Shown here: positions 5,104-42,510 of the stretch, one piece after another
Layout: each line of letters starts with the position of its first letter
Position numbering within the stretch: position 1 is the stretch's first letter
DNA from: Anaerolineaceae bacterium
GTDB lineage: Bacteria; Chloroflexota; Anaerolineae; Anaerolineales; Anaerolineaceae
Assembly (NCBI GenBank): GCA_002702705.1
Contig: PABH01000036.1
Coordinates: forward strand, 62,001 to 126,000
Length of the DNA stretch: 64,000 nt
Reading direction: 5' to 3'
Position numbers and translations under genes: made by a program
The notes under the pieces: model-generated
Seen by the model: the letters and a program-made list of their open reading frames with translations, nothing else
The model's database searches: none
What the model was told of the DNA's origin: nothing

Positions 5104-5444
5104 AAAAAGAATATATTTATCACATTATTCCAGCGTTGGAATGGGAAGCAATTCGCGATAATGACACTTATGAACCTGAAACGTTAGAATCCGAGAGTTT
5201 AATCCACTTCTCTTTTGAGAGTCAGGTATGTGAAACAGCAGCACGATTTTATACTGGTCGGACAGATTTATTGGCGTTAAAAGTAGATCCAGATTTATTA
5301 GATGGCGAATTGCGGATTGACCCTGTTCCGGGAGATGGTAATTTTCCACATTTATACAGCCCTCTTAACTTAAATGCAGTTGTTGGGGTTTTAAAACTTA
5401 AGTTAAATTCGGATTTGAGTTTTACCTTGGTAGATGGTGCTTAA
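5100..5444 (+). CDS. DUF952 family protein
   Basis: A 114-residue soluble protein that matches DUF952 along its whole length: the opening IYHII, an EW pair near 15, LIHFS near 36, RFYTGR near 51 and the PHLYSPL motif near 83 followed by a hydrophobic strand. Function in this family is unknown; it has been linked by fold to glutathione-S-transferase-like or ADP-ribosyl-type small domains, without a settled reaction. It overlaps the DUF2298 gene upstream by four bases and the DUF2298 gene downstream by one base (TAATG), so the three are almost certainly made together. Sandwiching between two DUF2298 proteins is the only clue to its role. Confidence 0.85.
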   Translation: MKKEYIYHIIPALEWEAIRDNDTYEPETLESESLIHFSFESQVCETAARFYTGRTDLLALKVDPDLLDGELRIDPVPGDGNFPHLYSPLNLNAVVGVLKLKLNSDLSFTLVDGA

Positions 5445-7945: not shown

Positions 7946-7952
7946 ACTCATA

Positions 7953-9665
7953 ATGGATGTAAATATGAAAAACAAGAAAGAATTAACCATCGAATTAAGC
8001 AGCTACATTATCCTATTTTTAATTGCGCTCATATTTCGCTTGGTTAATTTATATCTTACACCGCTCTCAAATAGTGAAGCTCTGATTAGCCTTCAAGCTG
8101 AAAATCTTGTTCGTTCTGTTGAAATATTAAAAATTGCACCCCATCAAATCCTCTTGGTGAATCTATTGGGGTTGTTATTCACGATTTTTGGAAGCCAAAC
8201 TTTTTTTGTCAGGTTGATACCAGCCCTAGCAGGTGCATTATTGGTATTTTTGCCTTATTCTTTTAGAAACCAAATTGGAAAAACGGCAGCATTGGTTATG
8301 GCGATTTGGTTAAGCTTCGATCCATTGTTTTATTTATTATCTCGCAAGGTTGATAGTACACTGTTGAGTATTGGATTTTTACTGATCGCTTATATTTTGT
8401 TTCAGCGTAAAAAATGGGTAGGCCTGGGTATTGTGTTTGCGTTGGGGGTTTTATCAGGAATGCAATTTTTTATCGGCGTGATCCTCCTTTTACTGACATC
8501 GTGGCTTTCTAAAGTTAATCTATTAACCACGCCTCTTGATGAAAAAGAAAAATTTCCTTGGAAAATTGTTTTAACTGCGTTTATTTCAACATTAATTTTG
8601 GTGGGTACAGTATTTTTTATTTATCCAAGTCAACTGGGCGGAGCATTTAGTGGTTTTATCAACCTTTTTATTAATGTTTCTGCAGAACCAGTACTGCCAT
8701 TAATGAATTTATTCGCCGGTTTGTTTTTTTATGAAGTTATCGTGCTGGTTTTTGGAATTATTGGTTTAATCGTATATTGGAAACAAAATCCTTTGATAGG
8801 AAGATTTGCCGGGATTTGGATCGGGCTGGCTTTATTGTTTTCTGTTTTTTATCCAGCTCGTATGATTTCTCAATTGGTCTGGCTGATATTACCATTAGGT
8901 TATTTTGCGATTTGGTGGATTTTGCGTGTAGTAAATATTAATTCAAAAAACGAAAAATTAACAGGTTTGTTTTCAGCCGTTTTATTTGTGTTTTTGGTTT
9001 ATATTGTTATGCTCATTTTTAGTATGAATGTGAGTGGTTTTCAGTTATTAGGTGTATCGATTAATAGCGGGGTGATTGGTTTTATCGCTATCATCATTTT
9101 TATCATGGCCGTTGTTATGATTGGTTGGGCGTGGTCATGGAAAATTGCGAATCAAAGTTTGTTATTAGCGATTTGTTTTGGTTTTGGTATATTATCAGTA
9201 TCTGCGGCCTGGAATTTAGGTGGGGGACGAAAGCCTTACCATAATGAATTATGGCATGTCGGACTCATTTCACCGGATACTGGCCTTATGTTAAATTCAA
9301 TAAACGAACTTGCAAAAATAAATGGTGTGCCGAATGAAGAGGTGCAAGTCTATATACAGGGTATCGATTCTGCTGCCATGATTTGGGCATTAAGAGATTA
9401 CGATGTGCGGTCTTTGCCTGTATTACCAGCTTCATTGGATACAGATGTTATTATCACACTTTATCAAAACGAAAATCAAGTTTATGGACCTTACCGAGGA
9501 CAAGATTATTTATTAACCTCCACTCCAGCCTGGAATTTGATGACGATTGGCGAATGGAAAAATTGGATTTTAACCCGTCATGCACCACAAGATGGAATTC
9601 ACCAACAAGCAATCATTGTGTGGTTTAATAATCAGTGGTTTGTCTCCGAACCGGTTCAAAATTAA
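7953..9665 (+). CDS. GT39/PMT_2-like membrane glycosyltransferase
   Basis: A 570-residue polytopic protein. The N-terminus has one membrane helix followed by a short loop SNSEALISLQ at about 36-45, which corresponds to the acidic loop of GT39/PMT_2 enzymes (here with a single Glu, not the common Asp-Glu pair), then LLGLLFTIFG and a run of about ten membrane helices. The last 150 residues are soluble. ATG at 7953; a second in-frame ATG at 7965 is possible. The gap to the DUF2298 gene is 7 bases, so it belongs to the same run. I infer a lipid-linked sugar transferase; the weak acidic motif leaves room for an inactive or divergent member. Confidence 0.65.
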   Translation: MDVNMKNKKELTIELSSYIILFLIALIFRLVNLYLTPLSNSEALISLQAENLVRSVEILKIAPHQILLVNLLGLLFTIFGSQTFFVRLIPALAGALLVFLPYSFRNQIGKTAALVMAIWLSFDPLFYLLSRKVDSTLLSIGFLLIAYILFQRKKWVGLGIVFALGVLSGMQFFIGVILLLLTSWLSKVNLLTTPLDEKEKFPWKIVLTAFISTLILVGTVFFIYPSQLGGAFSGFINLFINVSAEPVLPLMNLFAGLFFYEVIVLVFGIIGLIVYWKQNPLIGRFAGIWIGLALLFSVFYPARMISQLVWLILPLGYFAIWWILRVVNINSKNEKLTGLFSAVLFVFLVYIVMLIFSMNVSGFQLLGVSINSGVIGFIAIIIFIMAVVMIGWAWSWKIANQSLLLAICFGFGILSVSAAWNLGGGRKPYHNELWHVGLISPDTGLMLNSINELAKINGVPNEEVQVYIQGIDSAAMIWALRDYDVRSLPVLPASLDTDVIITLYQNENQVYGPYRGQDYLLTSTPAWNLMTIGEWKNWILTRHAPQDGIHQQAIIVWFNNQWFVSEPVQN

Positions 9666-24055: not shown

Positions 24056-25273
24056 TTGAAAACGAATTATTCTGCTTATCCTCGAATGAATGTTAAAACA
24101 CTTAACAAACATGTTGTAGTGGACTTGATTCGATTTACTTCAGGCGGAATTTCAAGAGCTGGACTATCCCGTGAATTGGGATTAACCAGGGCTGCTGTAA
24201 CTTCAATAGTGAATGATTTGAGTGACATGGGCATTGTGCGTGAAGCGGAAAAACAAACATCTGGCGGCAGAAAACCCGCTGTCCTAGAAATTGTTCCTTC
24301 GCAAGGATATGTTGTTGGGGTAGAGATGGGGGCTACTCATATTTTAGCCCTGGTTGCAGATTATTCAGCACGTGTCATTCGAGAAAAAGAAATTCAAATT
24401 GATATAAAGGATGGCCCTGAAGTGTGTTTGTCTGCTTTAGATCGGGTGGTACAGCAGGTAATTGCCGAGGCGGGTTTACAATTGGTGGATATTCATGCAA
24501 TCGGTATCGGTGTCCCTGGTCCCGTTGTGATTTCCGAAGGACTTGTTAGTGCTCCGCCCATTATGCCAGGCTGGGATAATTTTCCGATACGATCCGTGTT
24601 GAATAAAAAATGGGATTGTCATGTGTTATTAAACAATGATGCTGAATTAGGGGCACTCGGTGAGTGGGCATATGGTGCAGGGCGGAATGAAGCGAATCTG
24701 GTTTACATCAAAGTAGGCACAGGTATCGGAGCCGGATTGATTTTTGATAATGAGCTGTATCATGGTGTAACAGGGTCAGCAGGAGAAATTGGGCATATTA
24801 CAATCCGTGAAAATGGATCGATCTGTACTTGTGGAAACCGCGGATGTCTTGAAGCTGTGGCCGGTGGTAATGCCATTGCTTTACGGGCTTCGGAAGAAGT
24901 ACAGCGCGGAAAAAGAACTCAGTTGGTGGGATTTGGTGATTTTTACCAAATTACGATCAATGATGTTATATCCGCTGCTCGTAAAGGAGATTTGTTATGC
25001 CAGCAGATTATTTCTGAAGCTGGTACACATTTAGGCACAGCAATCGCAAGTTTGGTAAATTTAATCAATCCGAGTATCGTGATCATCGGTGGCGGCGTTG
25101 CACAAAGTGGGGACTTGTTATTAGAGCCAATCCGTACTGCTGTATCACGGAGAAGTTTACGAGTTGCTTCTAAAGCAGTAAGAGTTTCTGCTGCTTTATT
25201 AGGTAGAAGAGCATCAGCGATGGGCGCTGTAGTACAAGCATTATCGCATTCGCTGCATCAATTTTCTGAATAG
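24056..25273 (+). CDS. ROK-family transcriptional regulator
   Basis: A 405-residue NagC/XylR-type regulator: winged helix-turn-helix at about 15-72 (ISRAGLSRELGLTRAAVTSIVNDL), a phosphate-binding VGVEMGATHILALV near 90, and a ROK sugar-kinase-like domain with EIGHITI (His247) and the zinc motif with C257, C259 and C264 (CTCGNRGCLE). It should bind a sugar and control transcription of the transporter and glycosidase genes that follow. The TTG start at 24056 has AGGA about ten bases upstream; an ATG at 24086 is an alternative. An inverted repeat over its promoter suggests autoregulation. malE starts 88 bases downstream. Confidence 0.92.
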   Translation: MKTNYSAYPRMNVKTLNKHVVVDLIRFTSGGISRAGLSRELGLTRAAVTSIVNDLSDMGIVREAEKQTSGGRKPAVLEIVPSQGYVVGVEMGATHILALVADYSARVIREKEIQIDIKDGPEVCLSALDRVVQQVIAEAGLQLVDIHAIGIGVPGPVVISEGLVSAPPIMPGWDNFPIRSVLNKKWDCHVLLNNDAELGALGEWAYGAGRNEANLVYIKVGTGIGAGLIFDNELYHGVTGSAGEIGHITIRENGSICTCGNRGCLEAVAGGNAIALRASEEVQRGKRTQLVGFGDFYQITINDVISAARKGDLLCQQIISEAGTHLGTAIASLVNLINPSIVIIGGGVAQSGDLLLEPIRTAVSRRSLRVASKAVRVSAALLGRRASAMGAVVQALSHSLHQFSE

Positions 25274-25361: not shown

Positions 25362-26687
25362 ATGTCTAAGAAGTTTTTACCCTTGATCAGTTTAATTCTG
25401 ATCGCAGCTTTTGTTTTAGTGGCTTGTCAATCTGCCGCAACACCGGCTCCAACTGAAGAACCGGCAATGGAAGAACCGACTGCAGAACCTGTAGTAGAAG
25501 AACCGACTGAAGCACCAGCGATGGAAGAACCAACCGCTGAGCCGGCAATGGATGTTACAACGATTTCAATCTGGCATCAATGGGATGGGAAATATCTGGA
25601 AGCTATTGAACAAGCATTCCGAGATTATGAAGCAATGCACCCAGAAGTAAAAATTGACCTTTCCAAACCTGAAGATGTTGCCAGTGCTTTGAACGTAGCT
25701 ATTCCTGCAGGCGAAGGTCCCGATATTATCGGTTGGGCAAATGATAAAATTGGTGAACAGGCTTTCAATGGCAATATTGTTGCTCTTGATGACTACGGTA
25801 TCGATATGAATTACCTCGACACTAATTTTGAACCTGCTGCAGTTGCCGGTGTGGTTTATTCTGATTTCATTTGGGCACTCCCTGAATCTCAAGAAGGTAT
25901 TGCTTTACTCTACAACAAAGATTTAGTTACTGAAGAATATTTACCAGCAGATCCGTTGGATTTTGAAGACCTTTACGCCAAAGCAGAAAAATTCCAACAA
26001 GATACTGGCAAAGTTTTGGTTTGTAACCAAGGTTTTGGCGCTTCAGACGCTTACCATGTAGCCCCAATTTATTTTGGTTTTGGTGTTCCTTCTTATGTTG
26101 ATGAAGAAGGTAATGGTTATTTAAACACCCCTGAAATGATAGCGGGTGCAGAGTGGTTAAAGAAATTCTCCACTGTTTCTTTAGCTGAAAATAGTTATGA
26201 TATTTGTAATGCTGCCTTAGCTGAAGGTGAAGTTGGTATGTGGTGGACTGGCCCATGGGCAGTCGCTGGTGTTGAAGAAAGTGGTTTGAACTACGGTATT
26301 TTACAAATGGGTCGCCCATTTGTTGGTATCAAAACCCTCATGCTTTCTGCTAATGCGGTTGATCGTGGTACAGCTGAAGTTGCTGTGGATGTAATGAAAT
26401 ACTTTACAAGTGCCGAAGTTCAGAAAAAAATCGCTTTGGTTAATAAAACCATCCCGGCAGCAACCGCGGCTTTGAATGATTCGGAAGTTTCTCAATTAAC
26501 CGCTGTGGTTGGTTTTGGTGCTTCCCTTAACTTAGGTGTACCGATGTCACCTTCCCCATTCTCTTCAGCCCAGTGGGGTCCTGTTGGTGATGCATCTGCG
26601 GCTATCTGGACTGGCGCAGCTGAACCTGCCCAGGCTATGGAAGATGCAGAAGCAGCGCTCGAAACAGCCATTGCCGATATGCAATAA
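25362..26687 (+). CDS. MalE-type oligosaccharide-binding lipoprotein
   Basis: A 441-residue extracellular solute-binding protein of the maltose/family 1 type. Signal peptide with lipid Cys22 (LVAC), then a Glu/Pro-rich linker at about 29-64 built from repeated EEPT and AEP units, then the binding domain beginning TTISIWHQWDG. The linker is a degenerate tandem repeat at DNA level too. It would capture malto-oligosaccharides released at the surface and hand them to the two permeases downstream. GGAGG lies eight bases before the ATG. The hairpin that follows (26701-26735) probably allows more of this protein than of the permeases. Confidence 0.93.
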   Translation: MSKKFLPLISLILIAAFVLVACQSAATPAPTEEPAMEEPTAEPVVEEPTEAPAMEEPTAEPAMDVTTISIWHQWDGKYLEAIEQAFRDYEAMHPEVKIDLSKPEDVASALNVAIPAGEGPDIIGWANDKIGEQAFNGNIVALDDYGIDMNYLDTNFEPAAVAGVVYSDFIWALPESQEGIALLYNKDLVTEEYLPADPLDFEDLYAKAEKFQQDTGKVLVCNQGFGASDAYHVAPIYFGFGVPSYVDEEGNGYLNTPEMIAGAEWLKKFSTVSLAENSYDICNAALAEGEVGMWWTGPWAVAGVEESGLNYGILQMGRPFVGIKTLMLSANAVDRGTAEVAVDVMKYFTSAEVQKKIALVNKTIPAATAALNDSEVSQLTAVVGFGASLNLGVPMSPSPFSSAQWGPVGDASAAIWTGAAEPAQAMEDAEAALETAIADMQ

Positions 26688-26735: not shown

Positions 26736-26764
26736 GGTCAGGAAGTCGGTGAAAGGAGTGTATG

Positions 26765-27979
26765 ATGAGCGGCTGGTTAGGAAAGCGCAAATGGATCACA
26801 ATTACATTATTTTTGCTGCCTACGATTATTGCGATCCTCATTTTTAATATCTATCCAATTTTACTAAACTCCTATGTTTCATTTACCAATCGTAATAAGT
26901 TCCATCCCAACCCGGACTGTGATATTTTCCTCACGAATTTGTTAGATCCGTTATGTTGGAAAGCGTTTGAACAAAATGCGCCTAGAGGAATAGGACAACC
27001 CTATACTTTAGCTGAACCCCTATTTAGCAATTACGATACGCTAATGGGAAAACTTTTTCAACCAGAAGCATTAATTGCTGTGCTGCTTTTGCTTATAACA
27101 TTTTTGCCATTATTCGGAGCAAATTACCTTGGTAAAAGACAAGACAGGAAAATTAATTCCCAGATTTCAAAAGGTATGGTATGGGTAATTGGTTTTCTTG
27201 TGACAATAGCTTTATTTTTCCTGTTAAATGTTCCCGAAGCTATTTCTAAATTAATGCAAACCGGCGATTTTATCGTTGTCGTTTTCAGGACGATTTTATT
27301 TGTTGCTCTGCGGGTTCCATTAACCTTTGTAATTGGTTTGGCATTGGCACTTATATTAAATTCGGACATTCGTGGAAAAACATTTTTTAGAGTCGTGTTG
27401 TTTATTCCATGGGGTGCCTCATCCGTTGCAATCCTGATGGCTTTGGTTTGGCAATTTCTATTCCGCCAGCAAGGAACAATTAACCAGTTATTAGATTTAA
27501 TTGGAATTAACGGACCAATTTGGTTAAATAATCCGATATTGGCATTCGGGGTAGTGGTATTGGCAGATATCTGGTTTTCATATCCATTCTTTATGGTTTC
27601 CATTTTAGGTGCGTTACAATCCATTCCGGGAGAATTATATGAGGCGGCAGAAGTGGATGGCGCGAATTGGTGGACTCAATTATCCAAAATCACCCTTCCA
27701 TTAATTCGTCCGGCTGTTTTACCAGCTGCAGTGCTTACATCGATAACTGCTTTCCAAATGTTTGGTACGGCGTTTGCTATCACTGCAGGCGGTCCCATTC
27801 AAGGTGCAGGTAAACCTGGTGCTACGGAATTTGTGATGGTGTATGCGTTTAAGCAGATCTTTCAATCGCAAAATTTTGGAAGAGCAACTGCGTTCGCCGT
27901 GCTTGTATTTATCATGTTATTTATAGCTACTTTATATAGTCTACGAGTGACCCGGATTACGAAAGGAGCGTACGAATGA
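26765..27979 (+). CDS. ABC sugar permease, MalF type
   Basis: A 404-residue inner-membrane permease. TM1 is at about 11-30, followed by a long external region, three more hydrophobic segments and the conserved transport core. The EAA loop that contacts the ATPase reads YEAAEVDGANWW near 293-304, followed by LPLIRPAVLP. The insertion between TM1 and the core (about 60 residues with the CDIFLTNLLDPLCW stretch) resembles the extra external region of MalF. Two ATGs are adjacent (26762 and 26765); AAAGGAG is better spaced for the second. It overlaps the MalG gene as ATGA. The pair probably imports malto-oligosaccharides. Confidence 0.93.
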   Translation: MSGWLGKRKWITITLFLLPTIIAILIFNIYPILLNSYVSFTNRNKFHPNPDCDIFLTNLLDPLCWKAFEQNAPRGIGQPYTLAEPLFSNYDTLMGKLFQPEALIAVLLLLITFLPLFGANYLGKRQDRKINSQISKGMVWVIGFLVTIALFFLLNVPEAISKLMQTGDFIVVVFRTILFVALRVPLTFVIGLALALILNSDIRGKTFFRVVLFIPWGASSVAILMALVWQFLFRQQGTINQLLDLIGINGPIWLNNPILAFGVVVLADIWFSYPFFMVSILGALQSIPGELYEAAEVDGANWWTQLSKITLPLIRPAVLPAAVLTSITAFQMFGTAFAITAGGPIQGAGKPGATEFVMVYAFKQIFQSQNFGRATAFAVLVFIMLFIATLYSLRVTRITKGAYE

Positions 27980-28821
27980 AAAGGAAAACGAAACCGATTA
28001 TTCGCATTTTACAATATACAATCTTAGTAATCGCTGCCATCTACGCTTTTTATCCGGTTTGGTTTGCCATATTAGCCTCTGGGCGGTTAGGTGAACGATT
28101 GTATACATTGAATATTTTGGGCATGTTTATCCCTACTGAGTGGACTTTTGAAAATTACCGCGTCATGTTATTTGAAAGACCATTTTTAACCTGGTTAACA
28201 AACAGCCTAAAAGTGGCTTCGATAACCACGATTGCGAGCTTATTGGTGGCTACTTCGGCCGCTTTTGCATTATCGCGATTTCGATTTAAAGGTCGGCAGT
28301 TCTTTCTGGTCCTCTTACTTGCCATTTCAACCTTTCCCGGTTTGCTTTCTTTGGTAGCAATTGCCCAGGTGCTGACGGCTTTGGGATTGTACGGTACCCA
28401 TGTAGGCTTAATCTTAGCTTATACAACGGGAACGCTGGTTTTCTCCACCTGGAATCTTAAGGGGTATTTTGATACGATACCGATTGATCTTGAAGAATCA
28501 GCGATGCTGGATGGTTGTGGACCTCTTCAAGCTTTTATATTGATCGCATTACCTCTAGCTCGTCCGGCATTGGCAGTTACTGCGATTTTAGGTTTTATGG
28601 CTGGCTGGGGTGATTTTGTGTTTGCCTCCGTTTTGGTTCCTGCACCGGATTCTATGAAGCTGGCCGTTCCTGCATTATATGCATTAGCAAACTCAATGAG
28701 TGTTCCCTGGGGTTATTTTGCCGCCGGTGCTGTAATTGTGATTATCCCCACAATTTTAGTATATCTATCCATGAACCGTTACTTTGAGGGTGGGTTAACC
28801 CTTGGAGGCGTAAAAGGATAA
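27976..28821 (+). CDS. ABC sugar permease, MalG type
   Basis: A 281-residue permease with six membrane helices and an EAA loop LEESAMLDGCGPLQ near 176-189 followed by LPLARPALAV. The C-terminal FEGGLTLGGVKG is the typical MalG ending that reaches the ATPase interface. It forms the heterodimeric channel with the MalF-type protein encoded four bases of overlap upstream. No MalK/MsmX-type ATPase gene is present in the window, so a shared ATPase encoded elsewhere must energise it. Confidence 0.95.
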   Translation: MKRKTKPIIRILQYTILVIAAIYAFYPVWFAILASGRLGERLYTLNILGMFIPTEWTFENYRVMLFERPFLTWLTNSLKVASITTIASLLVATSAAFALSRFRFKGRQFFLVLLLAISTFPGLLSLVAIAQVLTALGLYGTHVGLILAYTTGTLVFSTWNLKGYFDTIPIDLEESAMLDGCGPLQAFILIALPLARPALAVTAILGFMAGWGDFVFASVLVPAPDSMKLAVPALYALANSMSVPWGYFAAGAVIVIIPTILVYLSMNRYFEGGLTLGGVKG

Positions 28822-28873
28822 TAAATTAAGTTTATGGATTTACCAGTTTGTTTCAAAGTGAGAAAAATTGATT

Positions 28874-28914
28874 GCCCGGTTTTCAAGATGGATGCCGGGC
28901 TCGATTTTGTTTTC
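28874..28914 (+). terminator. Weak terminator-like hairpin after malG
   Basis: GCCCGG at 28874-28879 pairs with CCGGGC at 28896-28901 over a 16-base loop, then a T-rich segment (GATTTTGTTTT). It lies in the 113-base gap before the GH13 lipoprotein gene and could reduce read-through into the glycosidases. The stem is only six pairs. Confidence 0.4.
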
Positions 28915-28934
28915 CTGCTAGGTTTGGAGATGGG

Positions 28935-30632
28935 ATGCTAAAACCTTTTAAATTAATTGTTTTTTGTGTATGTGGTTTCTTAATTTTTTCTGCTTGTGTT
29001 CCATCGAGCCAACCAGCACAATCTGAACCAACTCCATCCATAATCGCTACAATAGTCCCTACACCTACACCATATGATCCGATGCCGAGAGGCAGCGAAG
29101 GTTATCCATGGTGGAATGATACTGTTTTTTATGAGGTTTTTTTGCGCAGTTTTTATGATTCAAATGGTGATGGTATTGGAGACATTAACGGGCTGATTGA
29201 AAAATTAGATTATCTTAATGACGGTGATCCAAATACAAAAACAGATCTTGGCATAACTGGTATCTGGTTAATGCCAATATTTCCTTCCCCTTCATATCAT
29301 GGGTATGATGTAACTAATTATTACGAAATCAATCCGGATTATGGCACCATGGATGATTTTAATCGCCTTTTGGAAGAAGCCCATTCAAGAGGAATTCGAA
29401 TTGTGATTGATTTTGTCATTAACCATACTTCGACAGAACATCCTTGGTTTATCGAGGCTCGTAAAGGAGAAGATTCTCTATATCGAAATTGGTATCTCTG
29501 GTCCGAACAAAAACCAGAATATCTTGGACCCTGGGGACAGCCTGTATGGCATGCAAATTATGACCAAACCTATTTTTATGGCGTATTTTGGAGTGGAATG
29601 CCGGATTTAAATTATGAAAATCAAGAGGTGACAGGCGAGATAAACCGGATCGCTTCTTTTTGGTTGGACGATATTGGCGTTGATGGATTCCGTGTTGATG
29701 GAGCAAGACATTTAATTGAAGATGGCGATATTCAGGAAAATTCAGAAGCAACTCATACTTGGTTTCAAAATTTTTATACCTTTTATAAAGGTATTGATTC
29801 TCAAGCTATAACAATCGGAGAAATTTGGGATTCAAATTTTTCTGCAGTTAAATATGTGAAAAATAATGAATTTGATTTGGTTTTTGATTTTGAACTGGCT
29901 GAATCCTTGATGGAAGGAATCAATGGGTATGACGGGAGAAAAATTCAAAACGCATTGGATTTTAACACCAATTTATACCCAAATTTGCAAAAAGCTAATT
30001 TCTTAACCAATCATGACATGAACCGCGTTATGCATGTTTTTCAGCAAGATGTAACAAAAGCAAAAATGGCAGCTGTATTATTATTAACTTCTCCTGGTGT
30101 ACCATTTATCTATTATGGAGAAGAAATCGGCATGATGGGTTCAAAACCTGATGAAAATATTCGCCGTCCAATGCAATGGAACGGTGAAGAAAATGCAGGT
30201 TTTACAACGGGTTATCCATGGGAAAGTTTAAATCAAAATTATGAAGATTTGAATGTAGATAATCAGCTTCGTGATCCTGAATCTTTATTAAGTCTTTATC
30301 GTGAACTAATTAATATGCGAAACCATCATACGGCTTTTCGTGTAGGTAATTATTTTCCCATCGAATCAAAAGAAGTAGGTGTTGTTTCCTTTTTACGACA
30401 AAGCCAAGAAGAAATGGTATTGTTAATTGTTAATCCAACAAAGGAAACGAAAGAAATCTTGTTAAAAGACAAATCCAATAGTTTAAATCCGGGAACTTAC
30501 TTGATAAATTCTATTCTTTCTTCAAACAATTTACCTTCTCAAGAAATTCAGATTTCTTCAGGAGAATATTTTTCTCCAGTTGAACAATTAGAAGCTGGTG
30601 AATTTTTAATATTGGAATTGGTACAGCAATAA
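28935..30632 (+). CDS. Secreted GH13 alpha-amylase lipoprotein
   Basis: A 565-residue lipoprotein: signal peptide with lipid Cys21 (FSAC), a short Ser/Thr/Pro linker, then a GH13 (beta/alpha)8 barrel. The catalytic triad is intact: nucleophile Asp255 in FRVDGAR, acid/base Glu296 in IGEIWD and Asp361 in TNHDMNR; the first conserved region is DFVINHTS. A C-terminal beta-sandwich ends the protein. It should cleave alpha-1,4-glucans at the cell surface, supplying the transporter upstream. ATG at 28935 is chosen because it starts the signal peptide and has GGAGA just ahead; an upstream TTG frame would bury the signal. The next gene starts one base after the stop. Confidence 0.93.
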   Translation: MLKPFKLIVFCVCGFLIFSACVPSSQPAQSEPTPSIIATIVPTPTPYDPMPRGSEGYPWWNDTVFYEVFLRSFYDSNGDGIGDINGLIEKLDYLNDGDPNTKTDLGITGIWLMPIFPSPSYHGYDVTNYYEINPDYGTMDDFNRLLEEAHSRGIRIVIDFVINHTSTEHPWFIEARKGEDSLYRNWYLWSEQKPEYLGPWGQPVWHANYDQTYFYGVFWSGMPDLNYENQEVTGEINRIASFWLDDIGVDGFRVDGARHLIEDGDIQENSEATHTWFQNFYTFYKGIDSQAITIGEIWDSNFSAVKYVKNNEFDLVFDFELAESLMEGINGYDGRKIQNALDFNTNLYPNLQKANFLTNHDMNRVMHVFQQDVTKAKMAAVLLLTSPGVPFIYYGEEIGMMGSKPDENIRRPMQWNGEENAGFTTGYPWESLNQNYEDLNVDNQLRDPESLLSLYRELINMRNHHTAFRVGNYFPIESKEVGVVSFLRQSQEEMVLLIVNPTKETKEILLKDKSNSLNPGTYLINSILSSNNLPSQEIQISSGEYFSPVEQLEAGEFLILELVQQ

Positions 30633-30633
30633 A

Positions 30634-32772
30634 ATGGATACTGGTATTTTAAACTTACCCAAAAAACCTACTTGGTGGAATAAAAATACCTCCATTTTAT
30701 TAATCGTTCTGATTAGTGTATTATTACATGCCTGGTCAGTTTGGCAGTTGCCATTGGATTTTGATGAACCCGTTTATTTAAGTGCTGCATCCGATTATGC
30801 TGATTTTTTACGTAAGGGGGATCTAAAAAGTGTAATCACCTACTCGGAAAATCGTGAACATCCTGCATTAACCAAGTTGTTATATGCTATTCCTTATTTA
30901 CTATTTCCTGATTTACAAAATCCAAATATTTACCTCTTTTTATCAAGGTCAATTTCAGCAATATTTGGTGTATTAAGTGTTTGGTTATTGGCTGAAATGA
31001 ATGTATGGTCAGGACTATTATTTGCCTTTCACTCCATGACATTAAAATATACCAGTCAGGCTTACCTTGAAGCATTACCCATGTTTTTTATGATTTTGGC
31101 TGTTTACTTTTTGGTACAGAATACCGAAAAGCCAAAATATTCCATTTTTTCAGCTTTCTTTTTAGGGTTGACAGGAGCTGGAAAATATCCTTATCTAATA
31201 ATTGTTCCGGTTCTTTTTTATCTGCTTTATTTTCAACACAAAAAGACTATAAAATCTATTTTTTATTATTTTTTGACTGCATTAATCATTGCTTTTTTGT
31301 TTAATCCAACGTTGTGGTTAAATCCAATTGCTGGCATCCTTCAAACCAGTCAATTTCACGCTGCTTATAGTCAGAGTGTACATGATCAAAACTCTGGATA
31401 TGTTTGGTATCAACCTGTAATCACATTAGCGACATCGGTTATCTGGCACCCTCAGGTGTTTTTCTTTTTTACCAGTGATGAGTTCATGTTTTATATTGCC
31501 ATAATTGGTTTATATTTTTCTTGGAAAGATAAAAAACAACGCTGGTCTGTTTTATGGTTTTTCATTGGATTAATTACTTTATTAATTTGGCCTACGAAAT
31601 GGCCTCAATATACGCTAATTATTACGCCGGTTATCGCCTTGTTAGCAGGTAATACAATTCATCGAGGTATTGAATGGATTCGTCCGAGAAATGATTATTG
31701 GAATTATTTAGAAGAAATGCTTCCCCAACCACCACGGATTACCTGGTATCTTTTGGGAATTTTTATTTCCGTGTTAACTATTGGAAAAGTAACTTATGAA
31801 TATCAATTAGCTTTGGGTAGACAAGGTTGGTCATCTTTCACTACTTTCAATGCACCCTTGGTGAGCGATACAATCAATGATATTGTTATGGATGATAGTG
31901 GCAATTTGTTTTTTGCCAGTAATCATGGTATTGGGGTGTGGAAACCGGGTTCGGAAACTTTTTGGGGAGAAACCCCAGAGGTTTTGGATCAAAGAAATAG
32001 TCCTCTTTCATCAAACCGTGTGATTTCATCGACATTTGACCAAAAACGTGAAGGTATTTGGTTTGGTCTGGAAAATAGCCTTGCATTATATCAAAATGGA
32101 AACTGGGAGATATTTCCTTTAGATCAGCTCGGTTGTCCTGATTGTTTGGTTAATGATATTTTTGTTGATAACGTGGATCACGTTTGGCTTGCAACCAGTG
32201 CAGGTGTGTTTACTTATGATGGAAACGATTGGTTCAACTTTAGCCAACAATATTCCGGGATAGAAAGTGATAACACCCTATCCCTTTACATTCAAAATGA
32301 AAACAATTCAAACAAATTATGGGTTGGTACGGTAAAAGGGCTTTCGATTTTTGATTTTGACAAATTTACTTGGGAAAACATTAATTGGGCTGGCAATTTC
32401 TTTGGATGGGGTGGGGTTTCGGAAATTATCGAATCCTCAGAAGGAAAAATTTATACGGCTACCCTTGGTGGTGGTATAAATTTCTGGGATGGAAAAAACT
32501 GGAATCATTACCGTAATTCGAACACCCCATTTAAAAGTAATACGATTAATACCATCCAGTTTAACCCTTCCGGGGAACTATGGGTGGGTATAGGATATCC
32601 AACCGAACCAGGAGGGTATTTAATGCGTTTTGATAGAGAAGAATGGAAAAGTTATACACCGAAGAATTCAGGTTATTCCGGAGGTGAACCAACGGCTATG
32701 TATTTTGATCAAGCAGGTCGTTTGTGGATTACGACCAATGGAACCGGGTTGCAATCATACCAGAAACCTTAA
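30634..32772 (+). CDS. GT39-like membrane domain fused to a C-terminal beta-propeller
   Basis: A 712-residue protein with two unlike halves. Residues 1-400 are polytopic membrane sequence with the GT39/PMT_2 motif LDFDEPVYLS at 41-50, where Asp44-Glu45 are the expected catalytic acids. Residues about 410-712 carry at least six repeats of the two-component-regulator propeller type: GNLFFASNHGIG near 420, VWLATSAGV near 514, LWVGTVKGL near 561, IYTATLGGG near 604, LWVGIG near 647 and LWITTNGTG near 695. The propeller would face outward and could bind carbohydrate. It is placed between two secreted amylase lipoprotein genes, 1 and 11 bases away. I infer a surface glycosyltransferase or glycan-binding membrane protein; function unknown. 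Confidence 0.75.
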   Translation: MDTGILNLPKKPTWWNKNTSILLIVLISVLLHAWSVWQLPLDFDEPVYLSAASDYADFLRKGDLKSVITYSENREHPALTKLLYAIPYLLFPDLQNPNIYLFLSRSISAIFGVLSVWLLAEMNVWSGLLFAFHSMTLKYTSQAYLEALPMFFMILAVYFLVQNTEKPKYSIFSAFFLGLTGAGKYPYLIIVPVLFYLLYFQHKKTIKSIFYYFLTALIIAFLFNPTLWLNPIAGILQTSQFHAAYSQSVHDQNSGYVWYQPVITLATSVIWHPQVFFFFTSDEFMFYIAIIGLYFSWKDKKQRWSVLWFFIGLITLLIWPTKWPQYTLIITPVIALLAGNTIHRGIEWIRPRNDYWNYLEEMLPQPPRITWYLLGIFISVLTIGKVTYEYQLALGRQGWSSFTTFNAPLVSDTINDIVMDDSGNLFFASNHGIGVWKPGSETFWGETPEVLDQRNSPLSSNRVISSTFDQKREGIWFGLENSLALYQNGNWEIFPLDQLGCPDCLVNDIFVDNVDHVWLATSAGVFTYDGNDWFNFSQQYSGIESDNTLSLYIQNENNSNKLWVGTVKGLSIFDFDKFTWENINWAGNFFGWGGVSEIIESSEGKIYTATLGGGINFWDGKNWNHYRNSNTPFKSNTINTIQFNPSGELWVGIGYPTEPGGYLMRFDREEWKSYTPKNSGYSGGEPTAMYFDQAGRLWITTNGTGLQSYQKP

Positions 32773-32783
32773 TGGAGGAAATG

Positions 32784-35700
32784 ATGAAGCAGAAATATTT
32801 GATAATTCAAGTTTTGTTGGTCATGAGTCTCATTCTGACCGCGTGCGGTAACCAACCTGAACCTACCTCTACGGTGGTTGTGCCGACTGATGTCCCTTTG
32901 ACGGAGACGATAGAAAACACCTCCGTGCCGGAACCATCTCCAGCTGAGGATGTTCTTTATTTGAATTTGGTCTGGCATCAGCACCAACCGCTCTATTACA
33001 AAGATGAGAATGGTGTTTATACCAGACCTTGGGTACGTGCCCACGCAACCAAAGATTATCTTGATATGGCAACTGTGATTGCGCAGTATCCGAATGTTCA
33101 TGCCACATTTAACATCACACCGGTGTTAATTAAACAATTAGATGATATGGCGAATAATGGGGCAATTGATAAATATTGGGAATACGCATTGATAAACGCA
33201 GAAGAATTAAATTCAGACCAGAAGGAATTTATTTTACAACGCTTTTTTGATGCGAATTGGGATCATATCATCGCTCGGTTCCCAAGATATCAGGAATTAT
33301 TGGATTTGCGCGGCGGGTCGGATGCGGAATCAATTCAAAAGGCAATTGAATCGTATTCTGTACAGGATTTCCGAGATTTGCAGGTCTGGTTTAACCTTGC
33401 CTGGTTTGATCCGGATTTTCTGGCAGAAGAACCACTAAAAAGCTTGGTGGAAAAACAACGTGATTTTCAGGAAGAAGATAAAACAATTGTATTTTCTGAA
33501 GCACTTCGGATTATCCAGGAGGTAATTCCTTATCATAAACAACTGCAGGAAAGTGGACAAATTGAAGTTATCACCACACCTTATGCTCACCCCATCTTAC
33601 CCTTATTAATTGATTCGAATCTGGCAACTGTAGGCAATCCAGGTGCAGAAACTCCACCCCAATTTAGTTATCCGGTTGATGCCCTGGCTCATCTCAACAT
33701 CAGTGCCGAGATGTACGAACAACATTATGGAACCGCACCACGCGGTTTATGGCCGGGTGAAGGTTCTGTAGCCCAAATAATGGTTCCATTTGTTCTTAAG
33801 GCTGGTTATCAATGGATGGCAACAGGTGAACCGGTTTTAGCAAAAAGCCTCGGAATGGATTCTTTTACCAGAAATGCACAAGAAACGGTTTTAGAAGCTG
33901 ATAAACTATATCGTCCCTATTATGTAACGAATAAGGATGGCGATCAATTGGCTGTCTTTTTCCGAGATGGTGTGATTTCCGATAAGATCGGTTTCACTTA
34001 CTCAGGCGTGTCCGGTACGGCAGCTGCCAAAGACTTTATGAATAGGTTGGAAAATATCCGTGAGGAATTAAAAAAGGAAGAAGCTGATGGACCCCATATC
34101 GTAAGTGTAATTCTGGATGGGGAGAATGCCTGGGAAAATTATGAAAATGACGGTAAAGAATTTTTCCATGCTTTATACCAGATGTTGAGTGAAAGTGAAA
34201 CGATCGCCACGATTACTCCTTCCGATTATCTTGAAAAGTTTCCTCAACAAGAAATAATTGAAGACCTGTTTCCTGGAGCTTGGTTCAGCCCCAATTATGA
34301 TACCTGGATTGGAGAACCTGAAGAAACAATGGCCTGGGACTATTTAGGTCGCACGCGTTCAATGTTAGCAAAATATGATATCAGTAAGGTGAGAGAGGCT
34401 GCTCCGGAAAAAATTAAGGAAGCTGAAGATTATATGTATCTTGCGGAGGGTTCCGATTGGTTTTGGTGGTATGGGGCAGATCAGGATTCCGGCCAGGATG
34501 AATATTTTGATGAAGGATACCGGGCTCTGCTGAGAAAAGTCTACGAAACATTGGATGAACCTGTTCCAACATTTATAAACATTCCAATTATTCAGGCAAA
34601 ATCGATCCCGGCTGACGTACCAGTGAATGGGTTTTCTTCTCCCCAAATTGATGGTTTAAATAAAGAAGGGGAATGGGATAATGCTGGTATTTACTTTGGA
34701 TCAGAGACTGGTAATTCACAAGGTGTGTTATTTACAAACGATGAGAAAAATATTTACTTTCAAATTGGCATCCAGGATATCCAACCTGATAGTCAGGTTT
34801 CCATATACTTAAAAACACCACGAGGCAGCTCAAGTGGATATCCATTTACGTTGGCAATTAATGGGCAAAATCCAGAATTGTTAGGTTTAGCGGCAACTCT
34901 TGCTTTTTCTTGGACACAAGAAGATGGATTAACCGCCTATTCGGGTGAAGAATCCGGCTGGATTGAAAGCGAGCACACAGCAAAAGCATCCGCTGGGGAC
35001 AATATTCTTGAGATAGAAATTCCGTTTGAAATGATTGGTGAATTGGAAAGTGGAGATGAAATCCGATTTATTGTTAATGTTGAACCGGATGGAAATCGTG
35101 TTCCACTATTGGGACCAGGTCAATTGATAATGCCTGATCTTGGCAATTCAACGGTGGTAATGGAAGTGATTGATCCGGAGAACGATGATTATGGGCCAGG
35201 TACATATACTTATCCGACGGATGCAGTATTTGTTGGAAAAGCTTATGATTTAAAATCTTTCCGGGTAGCATATGATGAAAATAACATTATTTTTAAAGTG
35301 GAAACATATGGTGCAATACCCAACCCATGGGGATCACCCAATAATTTAGCAATTCAAACCATTGATATTTATATTGATGTTGATCCAGGAGCAGCCACTG
35401 GAGAACGAAAACTTTTACCCGGCAGAAACCTATCCTTAGAATCTGAAAATGGGTGGGAGTACGCGTTGTGGGCCGAAGGTTGGACGCCTCAAATTCTCAG
35501 ACCTGATGAGGAAGGAATAGAGCCTAAACCGATAACGGATGCAGAGATGAAGATCATAGTTGATCCGGCTGGTCGTTCTGTTACTATTCGCGTACCTAAA
35601 ACCGTATTTGGTAACACTGATCCAAGTCAATGGGGTTACGCGGTAGTCATATTGGGTCAAGAAGGTTACCCGACTGCTGGTGTTTGGCGCGTGCGAGATG

Positions 35701-35897
35701 TTGAGGAAAGTGCAGCACAGTGGCGTTTTGGAGGTGCTCCGGCGGATTCAAATCATACCAGGGTTTTAGACATGATTTGGCCAGAAGATGGTACCCCTTC
35801 TCAAGCTGAAATGTTATCGAATTATGTTTCATCAACAGCCAGTGCGGATGAATTAACAGCGGATGATTATGCATTAATTATGATGCTTAATCCTTAA
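32784..35897 (+). CDS. Secreted GH57 glucan hydrolase lipoprotein
   Basis: A 1037-residue lipoprotein: signal peptide with lipid Cys21 (LTAC), linker, GH57 catalytic barrel from about 52 (LNLVWHQHQPLYY), nucleophile Glu326 in WPGEGSVAQ and acid Asp445 in ILDGENAW. After about 620 come two beta-rich modules: a DOMON-like segment (about 625-770) and a glucodextranase-C-like domain (about 780-970) with GPGTYTYPTDAVF. GH57 amylopullulanases of this layout degrade starch, glycogen or pullulan. ATG at 32784 has GGAGG five bases ahead; earlier in-frame ATGs fall inside the previous gene or too close to the ribosome site. It is the last gene of the glucan locus. Confidence 0.92.
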   Translation: MKQKYLIIQVLLVMSLILTACGNQPEPTSTVVVPTDVPLTETIENTSVPEPSPAEDVLYLNLVWHQHQPLYYKDENGVYTRPWVRAHATKDYLDMATVIAQYPNVHATFNITPVLIKQLDDMANNGAIDKYWEYALINAEELNSDQKEFILQRFFDANWDHIIARFPRYQELLDLRGGSDAESIQKAIESYSVQDFRDLQVWFNLAWFDPDFLAEEPLKSLVEKQRDFQEEDKTIVFSEALRIIQEVIPYHKQLQESGQIEVITTPYAHPILPLLIDSNLATVGNPGAETPPQFSYPVDALAHLNISAEMYEQHYGTAPRGLWPGEGSVAQIMVPFVLKAGYQWMATGEPVLAKSLGMDSFTRNAQETVLEADKLYRPYYVTNKDGDQLAVFFRDGVISDKIGFTYSGVSGTAAAKDFMNRLENIREELKKEEADGPHIVSVILDGENAWENYENDGKEFFHALYQMLSESETIATITPSDYLEKFPQQEIIEDLFPGAWFSPNYDTWIGEPEETMAWDYLGRTRSMLAKYDISKVREAAPEKIKEAEDYMYLAEGSDWFWWYGADQDSGQDEYFDEGYRALLRKVYETLDEPVPTFINIPIIQAKSIPADVPVNGFSSPQIDGLNKEGEWDNAGIYFGSETGNSQGVLFTNDEKNIYFQIGIQDIQPDSQVSIYLKTPRGSSSGYPFTLAINGQNPELLGLAATLAFSWTQEDGLTAYSGEESGWIESEHTAKASAGDNILEIEIPFEMIGELESGDEIRFIVNVEPDGNRVPLLGPGQLIMPDLGNSTVVMEVIDPENDDYGPGTYTYPTDAVFVGKAYDLKSFRVAYDENNIIFKVETYGAIPNPWGSPNNLAIQTIDIYIDVDPGAATGERKLLPGRNLSLESENGWEYALWAEGWTPQILRPDEEGIEPKPITDAEMKIIVDPAGRSVTIRVPKTVFGNTDPSQWGYAVVILGQEGYPTAGVWRVRDVEESAAQWRFGGAPADSNHTRVLDMIWPEDGTPSQAEMLSNYVSSTASADELTADDYALIMMLNP

Positions 35898-39369: not shown

Positions 39370-42300
39370 TTATAACTTTGCAAATCGTGAAACAATTTCT
39401 GCTGCGGCAGGCAGTTTTACACGATCACCATTGCTTAATTCATTGGGGTTTTTTCCAACTGAGGCAGGAGCACTCTGGTAAATATATAGCGTGCTTCCTT
39501 CTTCAGATGATTTATCTTCAAGAAAAGCCTGACCGGTTAAGTAGCCATCGGAATCAATGGCACAACTTGTAACAACCCCAATCACTTTCCCTTTTTTATC
39601 GATTACCGGATCACCCAAATGAGCCATCCGAACACCTTTTTCGGTAAAACGGAATCGAACGACAGTACTTTTTTGTTGTTCCAATCGATTTAAGAATGCC
39701 TGACGGCCAATAAACCAGGGTTTATATGTTTTAACAAATGACCCAAATCCGGCTTCGGCTACACCTAGATTTAATTCGCCACCCATTTCATGTCCATATA
39801 AAGGAAGTCCAGCTTCGGTTCTTAGTGAATCGCGAGCGCCTAGGCCATTTGCTTTTAATCCGAGGGGTTCCCCAACTTCTAACAAGGCATTCCAAAAAGC
39901 TGGTGCTTGATCCGGATGAATAAATAATTCAAATGCCATTTTTTCACCTGTGTAACCGGTTCTTGAAACGACGAGATCAAAATCACCAATTACTGCTTCA
40001 CATAATTCTGTGCGTTTTAACGCTTTTACTCGTTTTATGGTTTCTTCATCTGCGCCGAGTGATAATAAAATGTCACGAGATTTTTTACCTTGTAATGCGA
40101 TATCCACACGCATATCAGGTCCTTCTTTGGGATCCCTTAAATTCCGTAAATTAAATTGACGGGTGCCAAAAGCAGTAACCCATGGGCGCTCGTTGTCCAC
40201 TTTAACGCTGCCATCTTTAACAGCGTTTAACCAAGCCCAATCTTTATCATCATTCGAAGCGTTTACTACGATTAGATATACGTTTTTCCGACGATGATAA
40301 ACGATCAAGTCATCAATAACATCGGCATCGGGTGTGAGAAGGTGGGTATAACATGATTCTCCAACTTGTAATGCACTGATATCATTCCCGCAGACGCTAT
40401 CCAAAAAGACAACCGCATCGGGTCCTTCAGCCTGGTATACACCCATGTGGGATACATCAAATAACCCGGCAGCGCTGCGAGTTGCTTGGTGTTCTTCAGC
40501 AACAGAGGTATACCAAACTGGCATTTCCCACCCGGCAAAAGGAATCATCTTGGCGCCCATTTGGACATGGGTGTCATAAAGTGAGGTACGTTTAATTGGA
40601 GGATCACTTTCTTCTTCCCAAGTGAAGGCTGTTTTTTCCGTTCCAGTATTATTAAATTTTTTAATTCCGACGAAATATGGTTTTGATTCGGTTTCAACTT
40701 CTTGGTTATCTACTTCCTCAAGTGTATTGATTGTGACACTTTCTTTAACAACAACTGGCCCCGGAATTCTGCGTTGGAGATCTTCATCAAAATAAACATA
40801 CGCATCGGAAAGATCACGCAGCCAGGCAGCGGCTAAGCCAGTTCTACTTGTATCAAGTGTGAATCGGAAATTATCCGGAGAAGTGCATGTCAAAATACCT
40901 GAGAGGATTTCTCCATCCACAACAAGTGAACTCACCTGACTATGACCTGGTAATAGTTTGCCTGCATCACTCGCAAAAGCAAAATTTACGAACTGGCGAA
41001 CATTTTTTCCGGAAATTTCTAAGGCGGATTTGCTAGTTAGTGATTTAAATTGATCATCCACATAATAAAAATGAGGATATCCATGTTTTTCAGTGGAGAG
41101 ATCTTTACTCGCCTTATCAGATAACTTGCGGACGCGAATTTTAGCATCTTCCAATACTTTGAAATCTACTTTTGCTCGAAGTTGATCACCTTTTTTCCCA
41201 CCAATAAAATATGGTTTTGTTGCAAACAAAACATCGGCTATGATATTTGCAACTTCTTGCATATCATTTTCGTCCATACCTCTTTGGGTCATCCAAGGTG
41301 TTCCATAACGGATCCCCGAAGCCTTTAATGCGGTTTTATCACCTGGAATTGTATTTCTATTTACAACCAAACCGGCAACATCCAAAATGCGAGCTGCTAA
41401 ATCTCCTGATAAAGAAGCACCGTCTTGGCCTTTGATTGTACTGCAATCTATATTTCCCAAATGTGTATTCGTTCCATCAAAGGGAATCTTTAATCCACGT
41501 TTTCTTAATTGTTGGGTTAAAGCCTGGCAGTTTTTAACAATTTGATCTTGAAGCTGTTTAAAGGTTTCGGTTTTTGCTAATTTAAAGGTTAGTGCCATGC
41601 CGGCAATTGCATGCATGTGTGGACCACCTTGTTCTCCAGGGAAAACAGCTCGGTCAATTTTCCGAGCCAAAAGTCGGTTATCTGTAATGATACAGGCACC
41701 GCGTGGTCCTAGTAATGTTTTGTGTGTTGTAAAAGTAATGACCTGGGCATATCCCACAGGGCTTGGAACAGTACCGCTAGCTACTAAGCCCGCAATATGT
41801 GAAATATCAGCTAATAAGTAAGCCCCAACTGAATCCGCTATAGCTCGGAATTTTTTCCAATCTGGGACAAAAGGATAGGATGAATATCCAGCGATAATAA
41901 TCTTTGGTTTGTGTTCAAGCGCAAGTGCGCTCACCTGGTCATAATTAATTTGTTCGGTGATAGGATCAACATTATAGTGAATGACATTATATAGTTTTCC
42001 AGAGCGATTTACGGATGATCCATGGGACAAGTGCCCCCCATGTAATAAGTTCATACCCAAGACGGTGTCACCTGGGTTAATCAGGTGATAAACGGCATTA
42101 TTTGCTGGTGCCCCGGAGAGGGGTTGTACATTGACGTATAAATCGTCCGGGGTTAATCCATTGGCTGCAAACGCCTCAGCACAACGCCGGCGTGCCAAGG
42201 ATTCTATTACATCAGCATATTCAACGCCTTTGTAATATCTTGGATCAGCGTATCGGCGATAATGAGCAAGCTGCTCATCATAGTCTAAAATTTCATCTTC

Positions 42301-42510
42301 ACGCATTTGGCGGGTACGCTCATCCGGATAACCTTCAGCGTAAATGTTTTGAAAAACGGAACCCAATGCTTCGCGCACTGCGATTGGTGCGGTGCTTTCA
42401 CTGGGAATTAAAATAAGTTTTCGATATTGGCGTTCGGCCTCGATTTGAATTAATTCATCAACTTCTGGATCGAGATCGGAGAGGTTGCCGCGAAAGAGAA
42501 AATCAGACAT
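39370..42510 (-). CDS. glyA-gcvT: Serine hydroxymethyltransferase fused to glycine-cleavage T protein
   Basis: One uninterrupted 1046-residue frame. Residues about 10-430 are SHMT: IPSESTAPIAV, the YKGVEYADVIE strand, SGAPANNAVYHL and PLP Lys264 in TFTTHKTLLGPRG. Residues about 640-1046 are aminomethyltransferase GcvT: TSLYDTHVQMGAKMIPFAGWEMPVWY in two blocks, FDVSHMG, the folate-binding VVSRTGYTGEKMAFELF and LGARDSLRTEAGLPLYGHEM. The 200 residues between contain a degenerate GcvT-like segment (about 490-590: SALEISGKNVRQFVN, LPGHSQVSSLVVDGEIL) flanked by near-repeats KPYFIGGKK and KPYFVGIKK. Both halves act on glycine and tetrahydrofolate one-carbon units. AAGGAG is well placed before the ATG. 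No gcvH or gcvP is present here. Confidence 0.95.
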   Translation of the reverse strand: MSDFLFRGNLSDLDPEVDELIQIEAERQYRKLILIPSESTAPIAVREALGSVFQNIYAEGYPDERTRQMREDEILDYDEQLAHYRRYADPRYYKGVEYADVIESLARRRCAEAFAANGLTPDDLYVNVQPLSGAPANNAVYHLINPGDTVLGMNLLHGGHLSHGSSVNRSGKLYNVIHYNVDPITEQINYDQVSALALEHKPKIIIAGYSSYPFVPDWKKFRAIADSVGAYLLADISHIAGLVASGTVPSPVGYAQVITFTTHKTLLGPRGACIITDNRLLARKIDRAVFPGEQGGPHMHAIAGMALTFKLAKTETFKQLQDQIVKNCQALTQQLRKRGLKIPFDGTNTHLGNIDCSTIKGQDGASLSGDLAARILDVAGLVVNRNTIPGDKTALKASGIRYGTPWMTQRGMDENDMQEVANIIADVLFATKPYFIGGKKGDQLRAKVDFKVLEDAKIRVRKLSDKASKDLSTEKHGYPHFYYVDDQFKSLTSKSALEISGKNVRQFVNFAFASDAGKLLPGHSQVSSLVVDGEILSGILTCTSPDNFRFTLDTSRTGLAAAWLRDLSDAYVYFDEDLQRRIPGPVVVKESVTINTLEEVDNQEVETESKPYFVGIKKFNNTGTEKTAFTWEEESDPPIKRTSLYDTHVQMGAKMIPFAGWEMPVWYTSVAEEHQATRSAAGLFDVSHMGVYQAEGPDAVVFLDSVCGNDISALQVGESCYTHLLTPDADVIDDLIVYHRRKNVYLIVVNASNDDKDWAWLNAVKDGSVKVDNERPWVTAFGTRQFNLRNLRDPKEGPDMRVDIALQGKKSRDILLSLGADEETIKRVKALKRTELCEAVIGDFDLVVSRTGYTGEKMAFELFIHPDQAPAFWNALLEVGEPLGLKANGLGARDSLRTEAGLPLYGHEMGGELNLGVAEAGFGSFVKTYKPWFIGRQAFLNRLEQQKSTVVRFRFTEKGVRMAHLGDPVIDKKGKVIGVVTSCAIDSDGYLTGQAFLEDKSSEEGSTLYIYQSAPASVGKNPNELSNGDRVKLPAAAEIVSRFAKL

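Follow-up and report, generated by a model that had tools for sequence, protein, structure and literature searches.

The locus described here raises the question of what a membrane glycosyltransferase-type domain joined to a β-propeller does within a run of maltodextrin-importer and amylase genes. In the window, i.e., the whole 64,000-nucleotide stretch of Anaerolineaceae DNA that was analyzed, one ATG-started frame with zero internal stops encodes a protein in which a GT-C membrane domain is followed by an eleventh transmembrane (TM) helix and a single Reg_prop propeller. The gene lies in a co-directional run, ROK-MalE-MalF-MalG-GH13-fusion-GH57 (Table 1), and by NCBIfam its three importer proteins come closest to the families MalE, MalF and MalG, at scores under the strict cut-offs of these families. 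The GH13 and GH57 proteins, both with Pfam matches, flank the fusion as the initial annotation had stated; like the binding protein, they have lipobox-like N-termini and Thr/Pro-containing linkers, and the GH57 ORF opens at 32724, its probable start (32775) falling just past the fusion stop. That annotation mentioned neither the importer genes nor a sister family of fusions with a MalF-type permease. The gene order, continued by a uridine kinase gene, is kept in L009, in L041 with an extra GH13 gene and in L010 without a ROK match, and it reads MalE-MalF-MalG-fusion in genome G500. Elsewhere in the window, three more large membrane proteins (1646, 833 and 570 residues) with DUF2298 and/or PMT_2 matches stand in a row at 163–9665, and a 1046-residue frame at 39370–42510 on the minus strand resembles, by eye, a fusion of serine hydroxymethyltransferase with a glycine-cleavage T-protein; homologues of the latter are full-length in L009 and L010 (70–72% identity) and occur as a cut copy in L041 (68%).

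Table 1 Features of the fusion gene and its locus. Coordinates are positions in the window; residue numbers refer to the fusion protein.
Feature	Coordinates	Strand	Evidence and remarks
ROK-family regulator	24056..25273	+	Pfam
MalE-like binding lipoprotein	25362..26687	+	Pfam, NCBIfam, lipobox-like N-terminus
MalF-like permease	26762..27979	+	Pfam, NCBIfam
MalG-like permease	27976..28821	+	Pfam, NCBIfam
GH13 lipoprotein	28872..30632	+	PF00128, E 4.5e-104; stop codon right ahead of the fusion start
GT-C and extracytoplasmic β-propeller fusion protein	30634..32772	+	712 residues; ORF, Pfam, AlphaFold, 28-locus survey
GT-C (PMT/GT39-like) core, residues 1–349	30634..31680	+	AlphaFold, structural matches, Pmt4 profile match, hydropathy and K/R count
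Asp44-Glu45 motif, first extracytoplasmic loop	30763..30768	+	Conservation across fusions
E-H-P-x-x-x-K motif	30856..30876	+	Aligns with H-P-P-F-A-K of yeast Pmt4
K-W-P-Q-Y motif of the fusion's GT-C family, residues 322–326	31597..31611	+	Family alignment
Eleventh TM helix, residues 368–397, ahead of the propeller	31735..31824	+	Hydropathy, model, conservation
Seven-bladed Reg_prop propeller, residues 399–712, predicted outside	31828..32769	+	Pfam, AlphaFold, structural matches, repeat motifs
GH57 and Glucodextran_C lipoprotein	32775..35897	+	E 8.8e-66 and 1.8e-60

In GTDB 220, sampled at one genome per species, a search by peptide pattern recovered three relatives spanning most or all of the fusion protein, and a profile of the GT-C part (E up to 1e-20) found matches in 50 of 396 class genomes and 35 of 400 phylum genomes, the two samples overlapping. 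From the 54 class-scan matches listed, G290:C42 was left out and L114 (G122) was excluded as under the 100-bit limit; seven weak matches of the phylum scan (75–84 bits, all of family f76), four of them L091–L094, were left out as well. The 71 loci classified comprise 28 propeller fusions (window included), all from Chloroflexota, 25 permease fusions, in which a MalF-type permease replaces the propeller on a related GT-C domain, and 18 members in which neither partner was recognized (below, partnerless). Kept despite being cut by a contig end were propeller loci L047, L048 and L075 and permease loci L077 and L112, and the partnerless members include L098 (cut at the 3′ end) and L110 (cut at the 5′ end). 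Because the propeller fusion recurs in 28 loci, and the permease fusion in 25 loci that span 11 family codes, a gene-calling artefact or chance fusion is rejected. Spread by plasmids was also considered and set aside, the GT-C part having no match in the plasmid search.

In a maximum-likelihood tree of 70 rows, from which L112 (233 residues) was excluded, a branch with support 99/94 separates a propeller side (28 propeller fusions and 7 other rows) from a permease side (24 permease fusions and 11 others), and the four labels need 8 changes against a shuffled mean of 33.9. One member of the permease side, L096:9345-10772, has no permease part; it groups with the permease fusion L062 at 100/100, a binding protein is encoded directly upstream, and a GH13 piece adjoins. 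Four further GT-C members (L106–L109) carry about 270–320 extra N-terminal residues and lie beside large membrane proteins, which in the three loci scanned (L107–L109) match DUF2079 or, under cut-off, YfhO.

The two fusion partners attach to what appears to be an enzyme of known type. In a Pfam scan of the window protein, Reg_prop (PF07494) scores over its cut-off (E 9e-13) and PMT_2 (PF13231) just under it at residues 105–228 (E 3e-5, 24.6 bits against 26.1), the identical stretch reaching 26.7 bits, over the cut-off, in the genome scan. AlphaFold models residues 1–410 alone with middling confidence (pLDDT 68, pTM 0.71), and the top match of this model is Chaetomium Pmt4 (Z 23.7 over 345 residues), with Z 23.6 for yeast Pmt1-Pmt2 and 21.3 for ArnT; the best 50 structural matches of the membrane part are all, by our assignment, GT-C enzymes or else complexes that contain a subunit of GT-C type. 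Foldseek gave weak E-values (best 1.1e-3) and again placed GT-C enzymes first. Furthermore, a profile of the GT-C family matches the yeast Pmt4 sequence (E 6.7e-6), with the family motif H-P-x-x-x-K falling on HPPFAK. Asp44-Glu45 is intact in the window protein, which together with the fold bears out the GT39-like membrane core proposed in the initial annotation; of the 28 propeller fusions, 26 have D44 and all have E45, and both residues are present in 22 of 24 permease fusions, namely those with letters at that alignment position. Residues R105, K184, W228, W323 and Y326 are nearly invariant in the family alignment. Sequence and model together suggest that the window protein belongs to the GT-C glycosyltransferases of the protein O-mannosyltransferase (PMT, GT39) type and that its active site faces the outside.

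Two propeller fusions, L051:4546-6672 and L052:665-2812, retain the fusion with the Asp of the motif lost, and no importer genes are seen in their analyzed stretches. These two cases would suit a GT-C domain that is a catalytically idle membrane scaffold retained for assembly, a reading that we consider very unlikely, residues of catalytic type being otherwise nearly invariant across both branches.

Hydropathy, charges and the model suggest a GT-C core of ten membrane helices that has both ends inside, while Asp44-Glu45 lies outside. Both standalone members analyzed (L060 and L068) end after the core with a positively charged tail, and the eleventh helix was not seen in them; in the propeller fusions this extra helix ends near a Trp present in 25 of the 25 members uncut by a contig end. 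The propeller is predicted to lie outside the cell, because a further helix follows the ten-helix core whose C terminus is inside. In the two permease fusions analyzed (L055 and L065), a K/R-rich linker precedes the first MalF helix; in known importers the N-terminus of MalF is inside.

The full-length AlphaFold model (four sequences; mean pLDDT 68, most of the propeller about 75–89) has a separate C-terminal all-β domain with 27 strands of at least three residues. By our reading this predicted propeller has seven blades, as judged from the strands and from repeat motifs at residues 426, 476, 518, 563, about 607, 650 and 698, which agrees with the propeller expected from the initial annotation. 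Residues 399–712 share the seven-bladed fold of the Bacteroides hybrid two-component sensors BT3049 and BT4663 at Z about 31 (first propeller of BT3049: Z 31.8, rmsd 2.5, 284 aligned; first propeller of BT4663: Z 30.7). The earlier designation as a two-component-type propeller accordingly holds for the fold and fails for the architecture: whereas known Reg_prop sensors of the hybrid two-component kind have further domains and a kinase, the window protein has one propeller attached to a glycosyltransferase-type membrane domain, ends with that propeller, and gave no Y_Y_Y or histidine kinase match with Pfam up to E 1.

These folds, the closest found for the propeller, and the starch-type gene run are what one would expect of an extracellular glucan or maltodextrin sensor gating the glycosyltransferase or the importer. 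We regard such a sensor as unlikely; it would have to act in a protein with no Pfam match to Y_Y_Y or a kinase, and at the propeller positions conserved at 80% or more across 25 members the residues are mostly W, G and D, which we take to be structural. The propeller protein may bind glucan, but nothing specific to such binding was found.

In the sister branch, the same kind of GT-C domain is joined to a MalF-type permease. The permease part matches BPD_transp_1 (E 2e-14 to 1e-16 in four scanned), a domain for which Pfam gave no match in the window fusion protein, and its best NCBIfam match is MalF (two scanned). MalG is encoded directly downstream of 24 of the 25 permease fusions, the exception, L095, being cut by a contig end at its 3′ side. 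With L095 set aside, a single pattern for the EAA-type (ATPase-docking) motif matches 23 of the 24 permease parts and 22 of 24 downstream MalG genes; the forms missed, in L111, L072 and L089, are variant or cut. Several of these loci have features of their own. At L057:9383-12434 the genes for GT-C::MalF and MalG are flanked by prfA and prmC, as named by Pfam, in a housekeeping spot, and the other loci of L055–L059 are laid out alike as judged by ORF size; at L065:8763-11153 a 797-residue binding protein with two SBP_bac_8 stretches is encoded upstream of two pairs, an ordinary MalFG and the GT-C::MalF-MalG, and binding proteins of similar size occur in L062, L096 and L102; and at L061:4533-9923 the GT-C::MalF gene is closely preceded by genes for a GT2 glycosyltransferase and a sortase.

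The covalent MalF-type fusion, the nearly constant EAA-type motif and the adjoining MalG could also mean that the GT-C domain is a functional subunit of the importer that acts on the transported sugar or on one linked to a lipid. This we judge decidedly unlikely; no sugar hand-over site was identified, and to our knowledge a GT-C domain serving as a working importer subunit has no precedent.

Gene neighborhoods extend the importer link to the propeller fusions. Counting genes on the same strand within 6 kb, a MalF/MalG-type permease is found near 17 of the 28 propeller fusions, all 25 permease fusions and none of the 18 partnerless members; a binding protein near 15, 7 and 1 of these, respectively; and GH13 or GH57 near 11, 8 and 1. 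Searched with these profiles and counted in the same way, 38 control loci centered on other PMT_2 genes, hand-picked and some overlapping (18 from the window's genome, 20 from G202, G027, G298, G272 and G500), gave no permease and one GH13 gene (L149, 3.2 kb away); in control L141 two MalG-like genes lie 3.8 and 4.7 kb off on the opposite strand. Fisher tests of the propeller fusions for permeases (p 9e-9 against controls, p 2e-5 against partnerless members) and for glycosidases (p 2e-4 against controls) overstate independence, since the loci are related: 8 of the 17 permease-positive propeller loci come from the single family code f71, and per family 7 of 13 are permease-positive (unlabelled L009 and L010 left out). 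The remaining 11 propeller fusions have no MalFG in the analyzed stretch, several stretches being short or cut by a contig end. The fusion thus recurs, and its description as part of an amylase locus fits the window; a glycosidase neighborhood as a rule is rejected, the importer being the commoner neighbor.

The link between the GT-C domain and the importer is well supported by gene neighborhood and covalent fusion, and its recurrence in both, our strongest line of evidence, leads us to propose that the domain works at the importer. Our preferred reading, advanced tentatively and short of an even chance, is that it is a glycosyltransferase dedicated to, or stationed at, a maltodextrin-type MalFG importer, where it probably glycosylates Thr/Pro-rich lipoproteins. 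The GT-C domain would take a sugar from a polyprenyl-phosphate carrier and place it on Ser/Thr/Pro-rich linkers of the binding protein and of the GH13 and GH57 lipoproteins, while the propeller, or the MalF domain in the sister branch, would keep the enzyme at the importer and present the acceptor. The initial annotation's suggestion that the secreted enzymes are glycosylated is, in our view, a reasonable guess.

Three considerations make protein acceptors appear likeliest: PMTs are closest in fold; the binding protein and the amylases are lipoproteins whose linkers contain Thr and Pro; and in Streptomyces coelicolor the glycoproteome, discussed as a product of Pmt, includes ABC substrate-binding lipoproteins and polysaccharide hydrolases (PMC6593405). 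The linkers do not single out the acceptor, since their Ser/Thr/Pro content equals background (0.37, n = 33, at family loci versus 0.37, n = 14, for other lipoproteins of the control loci), in a comparison that used a crude lipobox pattern, missed several starts and let one or more clear non-lipoproteins into the background set; the idea that Thr/Pro linkers specially mark the acceptor is therefore unsupported. Permease fusions L055–L059, whose analyzed stretches gave no match to a binding protein or amylase, count against lipoprotein acceptors. The preferred reading is also weakened by the 11 propeller fusions that lack MalFG in the analyzed stretch, by L051 and L052 with their lost Asp, and by the unfused L096 with its adjoining binding protein and GH13 piece.

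It is rather unlikely, in our estimate, that the enzyme instead builds or caps a cell-surface glycan, with the propeller as a carbohydrate-binding module (CBM) of the kind proposed for accessory parts of the mycobacterial GT-C enzymes AftA, AftB and AftD. The GT-C fold matches do include ArnT, AftA and AftB, and in mycobacteria substrate-binding-like lipoproteins interact with AftA and AftB, a CBM-like role being proposed for one such lipoprotein together with an eight-bladed propeller protein (PMC12802301). This precedent speaks for the propeller as an accessory part, though the acceptor there is a glycan. The AftA/AftB system with LpqZ, FecB and the propeller protein shares with the window locus the combination of GT-C enzyme, substrate-binding-like lipoproteins and propeller (PMC12802301), but its parts are separate proteins that serve arabinogalactan synthesis. 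A surface-glycan role would leave the MalF-permease fusion and the importer gene runs unexplained, and the top structural matches are protein O-mannosyltransferases.

With PMTs (CAZy GT39; yeast Pmt1/2/4 and actinobacterial Pmt) the window protein has in common the GT-C fold, the Asp-Glu in the first outer loop and HPxxxK; in contrast to them, it gave no MIR-type domain with Pfam, and its fusion family has a C-terminal Reg_prop propeller or MalF-type permease and adjoining importer genes. With the MalFGK2-type maltose importer the common elements are MalE, MalF and MalG beside the window fusion and, in the sister branch, a MalF-type domain with an EAA-type motif, whereas the window protein itself lacks a permease domain. 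We know of no MalF with a GT-C domain, and a literature search that covered few subscription papers gave, among the results listed, no report of a GT-C::propeller or GT-C::MalF fusion. As far as that search extends, the window protein would be a PMT-like glycosyltransferase with a previously unreported domain combination.

More generally, and with greater reserve, we suggest that a class of Chloroflexota MalFG-type importers may have a PMT-type enzyme built in, joined to MalF or stationed by a propeller, which would glycosylate binding proteins, amylases or incoming sugar at the transporter mouth. Protein glycosylation outside bacterial cells is usually viewed as a general process for many secreted proteins. 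An importer-bound glycosyltransferase, if real, would mean dedicated glycosylation of one nutrient-uptake machine or, alternatively, a new way of coupling a membrane glycosyltransferase to an ABC transporter, and the importer-linked fusions supply a definite group of partners for testing what such glycosylation does.
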